From: Magnetococcales bacterium HCHbin5 | Lineage (GTDB): Bacteria > Pseudomonadota > Magnetococcia > Magnetococcales > Magnetaquicoccaceae | Length of the DNA stretch: 53,098 bases | Assembly: GCA_002753505.1 (NCBI GenBank) | Contig: PEAG01000016.1 | Span: 1 to 53,098, forward strand | Direction: 5' to 3' | Part shown: piece by piece, positions 1 through 53,007 of the stretch | How positions within the stretch are numbered: position 1 is the first letter of the stretch | How the letters are laid out: every line of letters starts with the position of its first letter | Notes under the pieces: generated by a model | Database searches by the model: none | The model's input: only the letters and a program-made list of their open reading frames with translations | Told to the model about the DNA's origin: nothing | Program-made: the position numbers and the translations under genes

Positions 1-164
1 TCGGTCGGGCTGCCGCCCTCCAGGAGTGCCCCTGCGGGGCGTTTTGGGCGCGCTGCGCAAATTTCCTGCGGAAATTTGCTTCGGTAAAAGCGCGCCCTTG
101 CATGCAGGGGCTTTGCCCCTGCACCCCACCGGGGACCGTGACGGTCCCCGGACCCCTGCAATTG
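1..164 (+). repeat. Structured repeat arm R0 (type I), left-truncated composite
   Basis: This G/C-rich arm begins at the window edge within the end of a spacer and runs from GTCGGG to CCCCTGCAATTG. It contains successive hairpins: a CGCCCC-type stem, a long stem GGGCGCGCT/AGCGCGCCC enclosing GCAAATTTCC-TGC-GGAAATTTGC, then GCAGGGGC-TTT-GCCCCTGC, then a palindrome with arms CCGGGGACCGT/ACGGTCCCCGG. It is followed by an A-rich flank with AAAAGATTA. The AGGAGTG tag marks it as type I, the same subtype as the right arm at 25266-25427, so it is probably the right half of a composite element. Nothing else is seen in 1-230. Confidence 0.85.
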
Positions 165-230
165 TTTTAAAAGATTAAACAACAGCCGGTACACGTTGCC
201 AGCGAACGATTGAACAAACGGATATATGAG

Positions 231-10241: not shown

Positions 10242-10258
10242 CTGCATCTTTTTTTAAA

Positions 10259-10706
10259 CAATTGCAGGGGCCTGGGGACCGTCACGGTCCCCAGTGGGGT
10301 GCAGGGGCGAAGCCCCTGCATGTAACGGGCGCGCTTTCCCAAAAGCCCATTTGCGCAGCAAATGGGCGCAGCGCGCCCAAAACGCCCCGCAGGGGCACTC
10401 CTGGAGGGCGGCAGCCCGACCGAAAGCTGGCCAAATTGGGGAGGGCTTGGGAAAAGAGCGTTCCTGGCCTTATCTCAAACAAAACTTCGAACATCCGCAC
10501 GTTCTGGTTTCTTGTCCAAACATTTTCCATAACTGAAACGTGCGAGTCGGGCTGCCGCCCTCCCAAGGTCGCCCCTGCGGGGCGGTTTTGTGCGCGTTGC
10601 GCCCATTTTCTGCGAAAATGGGCTTTGGGAAAACGCGCAGTTCATGCAGGGGCTTTGCCCCTGCACCCCACTGGGGACCGTGACGGTCCCCAGACCCCTG
10701 CAATTG
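10259..10706. repeat. Composite inverted-arm element 1 (type I arm / spacer / type II arm)
   Basis: The left arm 10259-10420 (reverse orientation, type I, AGGAGTG tag) and the right arm 10546-10706 (forward, type II, AAGGTCG tag) face each other across a 125-bp spacer (10421-10545). Each arm contains several hairpins. The long one is GCCCATTTGC/GCAAATGGGC in the left arm and GCCCATTTTC/GAAAATGGGC in the right, both with a TGC loop. Both outer ends finish in CAATTGCAGGGG next to T- or A-rich flanks. The spacer shares blocks such as CTGGCCAAATT and TTCTGGTTT with the copies at 13761 and 25140. No transposase is present. The element fills the convergent gap between pssA and lpoB. Confidence 0.9.
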
Positions 10707-10748
10707 TTTATTAAAAGATACGGACGGGCGAGCGGGCGGGCGGCCAGT

Positions 10749-13580: not shown

Positions 13581-13600
13581 GAACAGCTCCGCTCCAAACT

Positions 13601-14066
13601 ATTGCAGGGGTCCGGGGACCGTCACGGTCCCCGGTGGGGTGCAGGGGCAAAGCCCCTGCATGTAACGGGCGCGCTTTCCCAAAAGCCCATTTGCGCAGCA
13701 AATGGGCGCAGCGCGCCCAAAACGCCCCGCAGGGGCACTCCTGGAGGGCGGCAGCCCGACTGAGAGCTGGCCAAATTTGAGCGGGTTTGAAAAAAAACCG
13801 TTCCTGGCCTTGTATCAAACGAGAAGCTGAATATTCGAAGGTTCTGGTTTTTTATCCAAATATTTTCCACGACATAACCGTGCGAGTCGGGCTGCCGCCC
13901 TCCCAAGGTCGCCCCTGCGGGGCGGTTTTGTGCGCGCTGCGCCAATTTTCTGCGAAAATTGGCTTCGTAAAAGCGCGCAGTTCATGCAAGGGCTTCGCCC
14001 CTGCACCCCAGCAAGGGCTTCGCCCCTGCACCCCACCAGGGGGATGATCCCCCTGGACCCGCAATC
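13601..14066. repeat. Composite inverted-arm element 2 (type I arm / spacer / type II arm)
   Basis: The left arm 13601-13760 (type I, reverse), the spacer 13761-13885 (125 bp) and the right arm from 13886 (type II, forward) have the same order and orientation as element 1. The long hairpin of the right arm is GCCAATTTTC/GAAAATTGGC. The usual GGGGACCGT palindrome at the right end is replaced by CCAGGGGGAT/ATCCCCCTGG (14036-14056). A 25-bp tandem duplication precedes it. The element lies in the divergent gap between the COG3014-type gene and murF. Confidence 0.88.
13986..14035 (+). repeat. Two 25-bp direct repeats inside a repeat arm
   Basis: Positions 13986-14010 and 14011-14035 are identical 25-mers beginning GCAAGGGCTTCGCCCC and ending CACCCCA. 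Other arms have a single copy of this module, in the form GCAGGGGCTTTGCCCCTGC. It is a local duplication unique to this arm in the window. Confidence 0.9.
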
Positions 14067-23353: not shown

Positions 23354-24889
23354 ATGATCGCAACCAGTTCTTGCCGGGCTTTGGCGGCTCGTTGTGAGGG
23401 GGTGCGGATGCAGGGCCCGGACCTGCCGATCACCGGCCTCAGTGCGGATTCCCGCCAGGTAGCCCCCGGTTTTCTCTTTGCGGCCCTGGCCGGCACCCGC
23501 ACGGTCGGCAGCCATTTTGTGACAGCGGCCCTGGCGGCCGGGGCGGTGGCTGTTCTCCACGATGGCAGTCTGGAGCTGCCGGCGTCGGTGGCGCAGTTCA
23601 GCCATCCCAACCCCCGTCATGCGTTGGCCCTGTTGGCGGCTGCCTTTTATGGCAATCCTGCCCGGCAGATGCGCATGGTTGCCATCACGGGCACCAATGG
23701 CAAGACCAGCACCGCAGCGATGGTGGAGGCCATTTTGTTGCAGCAGGGCGAACGGGTTGGTGTGATTGGCACGACCGGTATCCGTTATCCCGGCTTTGAG
23801 CAGGCCAACCCTCTGACCACCCCTGACCCGGTTGCCCTGCATCGGCAATTGCGCAACATGGCGGACAACCGGTGCAGTTCGGTGGTGATGGAGGTCTCCT
23901 CCCATGCCCTGGATCAGCATCGAACCGCCGGTATTCCCTGGCAGGTGGCTGTTTTTACCCATCTGTCGCGGGACCATCTGGACTATCACCAAACAGAGCA
24001 GGCCTATTTTGACAGCAAGGCGGCCCTGTTTTTGCGGGATGGCCCTGCCAGGGCGGTTATTGGTATCGAAGAGCCCTGGGGGCAGCGGTTGGCGCAGCGG
24101 TGTTTGGGGGTTTTGCCGGTTGCCACCTTCTCCATCGGCCCACCCGTACATGCGCCTGTGGTGCCGCCACTGACCGATCCGGCCCTTGTCGCGCAGCCGT
24201 TTTATGCGGACGACATTGCACTCTCCTGGCTGGGGTGTCGGTTCAGGCTTCACACTCCGGTTGGGACTCTGCCTGTCACCCTGCCCGGTGCGGGTCGGTT
24301 CAATGTGGCCAACGCGCTGGCCGCCGCCGCCACCGGTTGGCAATTGGGTATCCCCGAGGCGACCATTGCGGCGGGTTTGCGGCAGTTCAGCCCGGCACCT
24401 GGACGGATGCAAACCGTTCAGGGGGGACAGCCCTTTGCGGTCGTGGTGGATTATGCCCACACCCCGGATGCGCTGGAGCGGGTGTTGCAGACGGCCAGGA
24501 GTTTGACAACCGGTCGTATCATTGCTGTTTTTGGTTGTGGTGGGGAGCGGGACAGCGGCAAGCGGCCGTTGATGGGACAGGTGGCCGCCCGGCTGGCGGA
24601 GCAGACCATTGTCACCGATGACAATCCCCGTTCGGAAGATCCGCAAGCCATTCGCGACGCCATTGTGCAGGGCTGTCGACAGGAAGCGGGTTCGGTAGAG
24701 GTGTTGCCAGATCGGGCCGAGGCCATCGCGCACGCAATCGCCATGGCTGACCCGGGTGATGCGGTGATTATTGCAGGAAAAGGCCATGAAACCGTACAGA
24801 TAACGGCCAAGGGCTGTCAGCCTTTCGATGATGTGCAAACCGCACGTCATTGTCTGGCCGCCCAGGGGTGGAAAGAGGTTTTGCAATGA
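23354..24889 (+). CDS. murE: UDP-MurNAc-L-Ala-D-Glu--meso-diaminopimelate ligase
   Basis: MurE adds meso-DAP to UDP-MurNAc-dipeptide (511 aa). The N-terminal ITGLSADSRQVAPGFLFAALAG is followed by the P-loop ITGTNGKTSTAAM, then MEVSSHALDQHR, FTHLSRDHLDYH and VVDYAHTPDALERVL. The DDNPRSEDP segment carries the DNPR signature of DAP-specific enzymes. The ATG at 23354 lies 11 bp after the ftsI stop without a strong Shine-Dalgarno; an ATG at 23282 inside ftsI is less likely. Third positions are strongly G/T-rich. The stop codon abuts a repeat arm, so no murF follows. Confidence 0.96.
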   Translation: MIATSSCRALAARCEGVRMQGPDLPITGLSADSRQVAPGFLFAALAGTRTVGSHFVTAALAAGAVAVLHDGSLELPASVAQFSHPNPRHALALLAAAFYGNPARQMRMVAITGTNGKTSTAAMVEAILLQQGERVGVIGTTGIRYPGFEQANPLTTPDPVALHRQLRNMADNRCSSVVMEVSSHALDQHRTAGIPWQVAVFTHLSRDHLDYHQTEQAYFDSKAALFLRDGPARAVIGIEEPWGQRLAQRCLGVLPVATFSIGPPVHAPVVPPLTDPALVAQPFYADDIALSWLGCRFRLHTPVGTLPVTLPGAGRFNVANALAAAATGWQLGIPEATIAAGLRQFSPAPGRMQTVQGGQPFAVVVDYAHTPDALERVLQTARSLTTGRIIAVFGCGGERDSGKRPLMGQVAARLAEQTIVTDDNPRSEDPQAIRDAIVQGCRQEAGSVEVLPDRAEAIAHAIAMADPGDAVIIAGKGHETVQITAKGCQPFDDVQTARHCLAAQGWKEVLQ

Positions 24890-24941
24890 TTGCAGGGGTC
24901 TGTGAAACGTCACGCTCCCCAGCGGGGTGCAGGGGCTTAAG
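24886..24941 (-). repeat. Short repeat arm left of composite element 3
   Basis: This arm has only the outer part of the repeat: the TTGCAGGGG end, the palindrome module (CACGCTCCCC half intact, other half decayed as TGTGAAACG) and the GCAGGGGC hairpin. It is cut at GCCCCATATA. It overlaps the murE stop. A linker of about 38 bp, ending CTTTAAACG, joins it to element 3. Confidence 0.75.
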
Positions 24942-24979
24942 CCCCATATACGCTAACGTGATTGCGATCTTCCTTTAAA

Positions 24980-25427
24980 CGATTGCAGGGGTCTGGGGAG
25001 CGTCACGCTCCCCAGCGGGGTGCAGGGGCAGAGCCCCTGCTGAACTGCGCGTTTTCCCAAAGCCAATTTTCGCAGAAAATTGGCGCAACGCGCACAAAAC
25101 CGCCCCGAAGGGGCGACCTTGGGAGGGCGGCAGCCCGACGCGCACGGTTGTATCACGGATAAATGCTTGGATGAGAAACCAGAAGCTTCGGACATTCCGC
25201 TTTTTGTTTGACACAAGGCCAGGGGTGTTTTTTTTCCAAGCTATGCCCAATTTGGCCAGCTTTCAGTCGGGCTGCCGCCCTCCAGGAGTGCCCCTGCGGG
25301 GCGTTTTGGGCGCGCTGCGCCCATTTGCTGCGCAAATGGGCTTCGGTGAAAGCGCGCCCGTTACATGCAGGGGCTTTGCCCCTGCACCCCACCGGGGACC
25401 GTGACGGTCCCCGGACCCCTGCAATTG
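24980..25427. repeat. Composite inverted-arm element 3 (type II arm / spacer / type I arm)
   Basis: The left arm 24980-25139 (type II, reverse) and the right arm 25266-25427 (type I, forward) enclose a 126-bp spacer (25140-25265). The order of arm types and the spacer are inverted relative to elements 1 and 2. The end palindrome of the left arm has arms CTGGGGAGCGT/ACGCTCCCCAG, altered on both sides yet still fully paired. The right arm has the CCGGGGACCGT form. With the short arms on either side it fills the 735 bp between murE and murC, where no gene is seen. Confidence 0.9.
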
Positions 25428-25468
25428 TTTAAAAAGATAAAAGTATGGGTAGGATCACCATGGTAGCG

Positions 25469-25531
25469 CATATGGGGCTTTGCCCCTGCACCCCACCGGG
25501 GACCGTGACGGTCCCCGGACCCCTGCAATTG
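25469..25531 (+). repeat. Short repeat arm right of composite element 3
   Basis: This mirror image of the short arm at 24886 begins CATATGGGGC, has the GGGGCTTTGCCCC hairpin and an intact palindrome with arms CCGGGGACCGT/ACGGTCCCCGG, and ends in CAATTG. A GTTTAAAAAGAT flank on its left repeats to its right as TTAAAAAAGATTA. From 25532 to murC at 25625 there is A-rich sequence and an AAGGTG Shine-Dalgarno. Confidence 0.85.
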
Positions 25532-25624
25532 TTAAAAAAGATTAAAAAAATATGGGTATGATCACAACCATCCGAAGCCGCCCATACCCGGCGGTCGCGT
25601 TTTTTTGCTAAAAGGTGCCCCACC

Positions 25625-48520: not shown

Positions 48521-48649
48521 TATGCAGCTCCTTGGCTGGAATGGATTGTCCGGCCAGGATAGCGCAAAACAACCTCTACCAAAAGAACTTTTTTCACCCG
48601 GTATGCCGCAGGCACGCAAGGCGTCGGCCGTTGCGGCTCAATCTTTTTT

Positions 48650-48700
48650 ACAACGGCAGGGGTCTGGAGAGCATGAGGATCCCCAGACCCCTGCCGTTGT
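48650..48700. repeat. Minimal repeat: 18-bp perfect inverted repeat
   Basis: ACAACGGCAGGGGTCTGG (48650-48667) is exactly complementary to 48683-48700, with a 15-base loop. The GCAGGGGTCTGG part matches the outer end of the long arms, so this looks like two outer ends joined with the interior lost. A TTTTTT run lies outside the left arm, the wrong side for a terminator of ligA. It fills the ligA-downstream gap (48521-48728), where no other feature is seen. Confidence 0.8.
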
Positions 48701-52853: not shown

Positions 52854-52944
52854 TAAGATCCGTTATCGACATACCTTCCTCCTCCACGTCCAAATGGTGG
52901 GCCGTTCCGGCTGCACACATCTCGTCTTTACTCGTTTTTTTTAA

Positions 52945-53007
52945 CAATTGCAGGGGTCTAGGGACCGTCACGCTCCCCGGCGGGGTGCAGGGGCAAAGCC
53001 CCATATG
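52945..53007 (-). repeat. Short repeat arm at the right edge
   Basis: This arm has the same form as the short arms beside element 3: it runs from CAATTGCAGGGG to GCCCCATATG. Its palindrome is decayed (CTAGGGACCGT against ACGCTCCCCGG), while the GGGGCAAAGCCCC hairpin is intact. A T-run lies outside it. Linker 53008-53051 ends CTTTTTAAA, like the linkers at 24942 and 25428. The rest of 52854-52944 shows no feature. Confidence 0.8.

Follow-up and report, generated by a model that had tools for sequence, protein, structure and literature searches.

The window analysed here, i.e., the whole stretch of 53,098 nt, is one contig (C112) of a 4.19 Mb genome in 200 contigs, the nearest named relatives of which are, in a protein comparison, Magnetococcales MAGs, and carries a cell-wall and division gene cluster, recognizable by Mur ligases and a penicillin-binding protein as markers. 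In addition, it contains three complete copies of a composite palindromic element, several solitary end modules and one element truncated at each contig end (Table 1). Repeat copies lie at both contig ends (1 and 53098) and likewise at many contig ends of this genome and of related MAGs, so that short-read assemblies of Magnetococcales are probably interrupted at the elements.

Table 1. Arms, cores and end modules of the palindromic element in the window.
Feature	Position	Strand	Remarks
A-type arm	1..172	+	element truncated by contig start; long hairpin 46-96 (R1 match C112:46-96), inner stem GCAAATTTCC/GGAAATTTGC; end palindrome ~129-151
A-type arm, element 1	10253..10424	-	long hairpin 10327-10378, stem GCCCATTTGC
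Core, element 1	10425..10541	.	variable, ~117 nt, flanked by both inverted arms
B-type arm, element 1	10542..10711	+	long hairpin 10591-10639, stem GCCCATTTTC, outer stem GCGCGTT/AACGCGC
A-type arm, element 2	13595..13763	-	long hairpin 13667-13718
Core, element 2	13764..13881	.	
B-type arm, element 2	13882..14060	+	long hairpin 13931-13979, stem GCCAATTTTC; end hairpin duplicated; CCAGGGGGATGATCCCCCTGG (~14039-14059) in place of the usual end palindrome
Solitary end module (2 terminal hairpins)	24885..24945	-	left of element 3
B-type arm, element 3	24974..25142	-	long hairpin 25046-25094
Core, element 3	25143..25261	.	
A-type arm, element 3	25262..25433	+	long hairpin 25308-25359
Solitary end module	25474..25542	+	right of element 3; 99% identity to element 3's own end
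Solitary end module	52937..53002	-	
End module or arm, truncated by contig end	53044..53098	-	

The seven arms of the window belong to a large family of repeats, as can be seen from 482 arm markers in the 4.19 Mb genome: with at most two mismatches, the 18-mer GTCGGGCTGCCGCCCTCC matches the two strands 240 and 242 times, compared to 1 + 1 for the reversed control pattern. This corresponds to ~240 elements of ~460 bp, each built from an A-arm, a ~118-nt core and an inverted B-arm, and each arm is a string of five hairpins with a length of ~170 bp. The inverted arrangement around the core was found in all 91 recovered arm pairs, with a core length of mostly 116-121 nt, and wherever both arms of a pair could be typed, one was of type A and the other of type B. 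The AT-rich core itself is a mosaic of recurring blocks in these 91 elements, a pattern that seems to imply frequent recombination between copies.

Comparison with relatives points to mobility. The junction between the two Mur-ligase genes measures 735 nt with the element in the window and ~130 and ~160 nt without it in two relatives, and in one relative (L093) an arm is present at a different junction within this cluster, which spans only 126 nt in the window. Target-site duplications were not enriched over permuted flanks in 77 elements, the exact ends of which are uncertain. None of 48 elements overlaps with a gene predicted by a simple gene finder, and the flanking genes of 47 elements are convergent in 23 cases, tandem in 20 and divergent in only four. 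This distribution, with many convergent and few divergent neighbours, could reflect promoter avoidance or a terminator-like role.

In layout and spread the element resembles a REPIN or a MITE. As in REPINs and BIMEs, in which REP doublets are mobilised in trans by a RAYT (TnpA_REP), inverted palindromic units flank a spacer that varies, each genome holds hundreds of intergenic copies, end units occur alone and compensatory changes have been reported (PMC3116915). In contrast to the short REP, the Magnetococcales arm comprises five hairpins, and in the 172-column consensus of the arms of this genome the palindrome foot has no GTAG or CGTC tag. Moreover, the presence of Y1_Tnp, the RAYT domain, does not follow the motif. 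No arm lies in the 3.3-kb locus of the only Y1_Tnp gene of the genome, the hairpin motif occurs without a Y1_Tnp match in the incomplete genomes G005, G013, G015, G018 and G046, and elsewhere Y1_Tnp occurs without the motif, so that we rejected RAYT as a universal mobiliser. With MITEs the element shares its small size, the lack of coding sequence, terminal inverted repeats, dispersal and presence or absence at orthologous sites, but it differs in that no target-site duplication was detected. The search for Y1_Tnp revealed no parent autonomous transposon or mobilising transposase.

The sequence-only reading had described paired base changes in the stems of the seven arms, and the alignment of these arms reproduces every one of them. 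The TGC loop is present in all seven arms; position 9 of the long stem is G-C in the copies at 10259, 13601 and 25266, T-A in those at 10546, 13886 and 24980 and C-G in the arm at 1-164; position 4 alternates between C-G and A-T, and the outer stem between GCGCGCT/AGCGCGC and GCGCGTT/AACGCGC. Position 3, which had been overlooked, is also switched as a pair in the 1-164 arm. The end palindrome shows the three paired forms described for it in six arms, whereas the 13886 arm carries another sequence at this place (Table 1). As evidence these four examples differ in value: covariation is supported for position 4 and for the end palindrome (see below), but the G-C/T-A difference at position 9 follows the division into A and B arms, as does, for the most part, the outer-stem switch, so that the evidence of the window is partly pseudo-replicated and these two examples are not independent within it.

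The check that had been proposed, covariation among all genomic copies, was performed with 183 arms of the same genome, gathered from search matches and ~150 genome stretches in which similarity-ranked and contig-ordered loci are mixed. Our R-scape-like test combines a G statistic and average-product correction with a null model that redistributes the substitutions of each branch on a FastTree tree; this tree is approximate and the single-tree assumption of the null is violated by recombination. Both sides vary in seven of the stem pairs, and mixed states are very few except at the stem foot. In arm columns, these are 61/79 (CG 100, AT 80, mixed 0), 62/78 (CG 96, AT 84, mixed 0), 131/151 (CG 112, TA 65, CA 3), 137/145 (CG 135, GC 44, mixed 2), 49/97 (GC 122, TA 48, mixed 10), the outer-stem pair 55/91 (CG 92, TA 88) and position 9, i.e., 67/73 (TA 92, GC 63, CG 24, CA 1). 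Covariation beyond phylogeny was obtained for four of them, 61/79, 62/78, 131/151 and 137/145, which include position 4 and the end palindrome, and for no pair outside the structure. Position 9 and the outer stem were not significant against this tree-aware null within the genome, because the three-versus-three split of the window is the split between A and B arms and few events are involved (four double changes on the tree at 67/73 and two at 55/91).

For these two pairs the data agree with a reading in which pairing is not actively maintained at all and a few old haplotypes, recently amplified, have passed on their paired differences as pseudo-replicates, and private mutations are indeed rare in most columns of the 183 arms. 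For the family as a whole we consider this reading very improbable. The adjacent pairs 61/79 and 62/78 occur in four combinations (91, 75, 9 and 5 arms) with no broken pair, and 55/91 and 61/79 do so as well (65, 53, 35 and 27). Nested and adjacent pairs that reassort four ways unbroken cannot be explained by two linked haplotypes; the two halves of a pair act as one site while neighbouring pairs reassort. Furthermore, 7-16 double events were inferred for each of the four significant pairs, and dozens of different perfect stems exist across 16 genomes (see below). Unless recombination badly misleads the trees, the tree-aware tests refute inheritance from old haplotypes family-wide.

For the long hairpin, a covariance model (R1) was searched in 61 genomes, and most of the genomes compared are fragmented MAGs. 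The motif is present in 21 of them, all Magnetococcales (21 of the 48 genomes of the class searched), and in none of the 13 other genomes of the phylum. In 101 instances from 15 other genomes 97.5% of the cells pair, compared to 78.0% in shuffles, and the covariation score of 0.415 contrasts with 0.084 in shuffles and at most 0.091 with partners slid. An alignment of own and related copies (A4; 110 distinct rows, 16 genomes) revealed five significant inner-stem pairs (E<=0.005) and none outside the structure, and position 9 (column pair 20/26) becomes significant once other species are included. These cross-species alignments are fitted to the structure of the model; hairpins of the relative G013, which were obtained structure-free, are in agreement. 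In 129 of 140 motif copies from 16 genomes the stem is perfect down to a loop of at most 8 nt, with stem lengths of 8-15 bp and dozens of versions; the 27 copies in G025 alone include 11 different perfect stems. The outer stem with its asymmetric bulge is conserved in sequence across the class. Inverted motif pairs at a distance of ~150-250 bp are also found in relatives, which indicates an old origin of the composite layout.

Covariation between paired bases is the standard proof that an RNA fold has a function. The arms could be transcribed and selected as a folded RNA, a bidirectional terminator or an mRNA stabiliser, with ordinary compensatory evolution of the RNA. The significant covariation, the intergenic position, often between convergent genes, and, in some relatives, element ends at which a T-run follows a hairpin fit such a role. 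Nevertheless, a transcribed and selected RNA is disfavoured, and we regard it as improbable: not a single G·U pair occurs among 1,068 inner-stem cells, compared to 32 in 843 (3.8%) in tRNAs of the same clade, and wobbles in the outer stem show no strand bias (16 G·U versus 12 mirror A·C). The few elements between divergent genes likewise speak against it, as does the lack of an Rfam match at the gathering threshold in the whole window and at E<=1 in element 3. A terminator role was not retained, since terminator-like sites at element 3 do not exceed those in shuffles and the gene context is only suggestive. No tRNA-like feature was found in the window.

The kind of changes on the tree points to the DNA level. 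In the inner stem, 53 branch events of the A4 tree convert one Watson-Crick pair directly into another, one leads to GU and six to a mismatch, whereas in the sequence-constrained outer stem eight such double events are accompanied by 11 changes to GU and 22 to a mismatch. Homologous hairpins of 25 bp and 21 bp in G013 are hypervariable between copies (e.g., CAGGCCCTCTTCC..., GCAGGTCCACTGCC..., GCAGGCTCACGTTC...), and their stems comprise 438 Watson-Crick cells and a single mismatch, which was confirmed by an anchor search without the requirement for a perfect stem. Even the lengths are mirrored, as the stem at locus L294 is 2 bp shorter and that at L292 3 bp longer on both arms; it is very unlikely that such matched indels are independent events. 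Thus, both-sided changes, including mirrored indels, are in excess, as expected for template switching. Taken together with the absence of G·U from the inner stem, the wobbles without strand bias and the perfect hypervariable stems, this favours copying of DNA from one hairpin arm to the other.

Inversion of the spacer is a side product of intermolecular template switching. A clear loop inversion was detected only once in 171 own arms (C24:4853, GCTGCGC -> GCGCAGC), the few TGA/TCA loops seen are explained equally well by a point change, and the loop orientation is constant in G013. Because loop inversion is so rare, intramolecular switching or selection on the loops must be assumed. Template switching at quasipalindromes with homogenisation of the arms is established and has been proposed for RNA genes too (PMC8794818, PMC8604942, PMC7202029), and loop inversion was also rare in one of these studies (PMC8794818). 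The Magnetococcales arms share with such hotspots the homogenised arms and the both-sided and multi-base changes, but the hotspots are isolated sites, whereas here a dispersed family with conserved loop orientation extends across a bacterial class.

On balance, we lean towards the view that the family of the seven arms is a REPIN-like mobile palindromic element, the stems of which are perfected by DNA hairpin templating, perhaps in combination with selection on the folded strand. Hairpins would extrude when the DNA is single-stranded, and DNA synthesis could switch template inside a hairpin and resynthesise one arm on the other. Any substitution or indel in one half would thereby be copied to the other half in one step, and recombination between copies might then reassort the paired alleles that arise in this way. 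Judging from the conserved outer stem and the asymmetric 3' bulge (TT....AAA), the folded strand is perhaps also recognised by a protein, possibly a putative mobilising enzyme. The sequence-only reading had left open whether selection or conversion keeps a folded RNA or DNA hairpin. Active upkeep of the pairing is supported, and the choice is now narrowed towards DNA-level copying between the halves of a hairpin; the palindrome-specific gene conversion named there as a refuting alternative is favoured over RNA selection.

Conversion between the two arms of one element is unsupported, as the inner stems of partner arms are, if anything, anti-correlated. In this genome, the A and B arms within one element tend to differ in their inner stem at arm columns 61/79 and 62/78 (17/34/15/5; p = 0.003 in a Fisher test at column 61). 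This looks like an avoidance of identical inverted arms but is not general, as the arms in G013 are alike.

A possible, though unlikely, alternative to hairpin templating is a selected single-stranded or cruciform DNA hairpin that is read by a transposase or nuclease, with ordinary mutation followed by compensation and mismatched copies that cannot spread. The class-wide conservation of the outer stem and bulge is as expected for a recognition site, the REPIN-like layout with many copies would suit it, and the arms, folded as single-stranded DNA, lie far below shuffles (z = -4.8 for 25288-25360 in the A-arm of element 3). REPINs show compensatory changes too (PMC3116915). In a large population of copies, fast compensatory change under such selection could produce a very similar pattern in many respects. 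However, each change would require two matched substitutions and the mirrored lengths two matched indels, one-sided events are few in the inner stem compared to the double ones, and perfect pairing at all 21-25 positions exceeds what stability needs. Bolder, and in our estimation rather doubtful, is the idea of a new mobile element that multiplies via a single-stranded fold-back. In this case each round of copying would resynthesise the hairpin halves, so that the stems drift while their pairing is renewed, and a putative Magnetococcales enzyme would read the outer stem and bulge.

The conserved boxes of integron attC sites are GTT/AAC. As in attC sites, the folded single strand seems to matter, the stem is variable and extrahelical bases mark the strand. 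In contrast, the conserved outer stem of the Magnetococcales element is GGCGCGCT/AGCGCGCC, no cassettes are present, and GTT...AAC core boxes were found neither in the arm consensus nor in the class-wide consensus.

The family is a strong natural case in which covariation that persists after correction for the tree most likely originates from copying within DNA hairpins, and it provides hundreds of copies per genome as well as dozens of stem versions that are independent of each other. It can serve as a control set for covariation methods, with the absence of G·U, the lack of strand bias and mirrored indels as warning signs, and offers a way to measure bacterial template-switch rates. Template switching as the maintenance mechanism is already known; what is new is that it appears to drive an entire dispersed family throughout a bacterial class. 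The order-wide element appears to be undescribed; our literature search found no paper on such repeats in Magnetococcales.

The element ends are variable in their own right. In the 13886 arm the GCAAGGGCTTCGCCCCTGCACCCCA hairpin is duplicated in tandem and followed by a differing end palindrome (window 13973-14060), which suggests a modular exchange of element ends. The solitary end modules at 24885-24945, 25474-25542 and 52937-53002, beside complete elements, come with a repeated spacer of ~40 nt (AAAGATTA...CATGTTAGCGCATAT), and element ends growing in tandem are common across the genome. Another, longer near-perfect palindrome is located at 48643-48697 of the window and has GGCAGGGGTCTGG in common with the end module.
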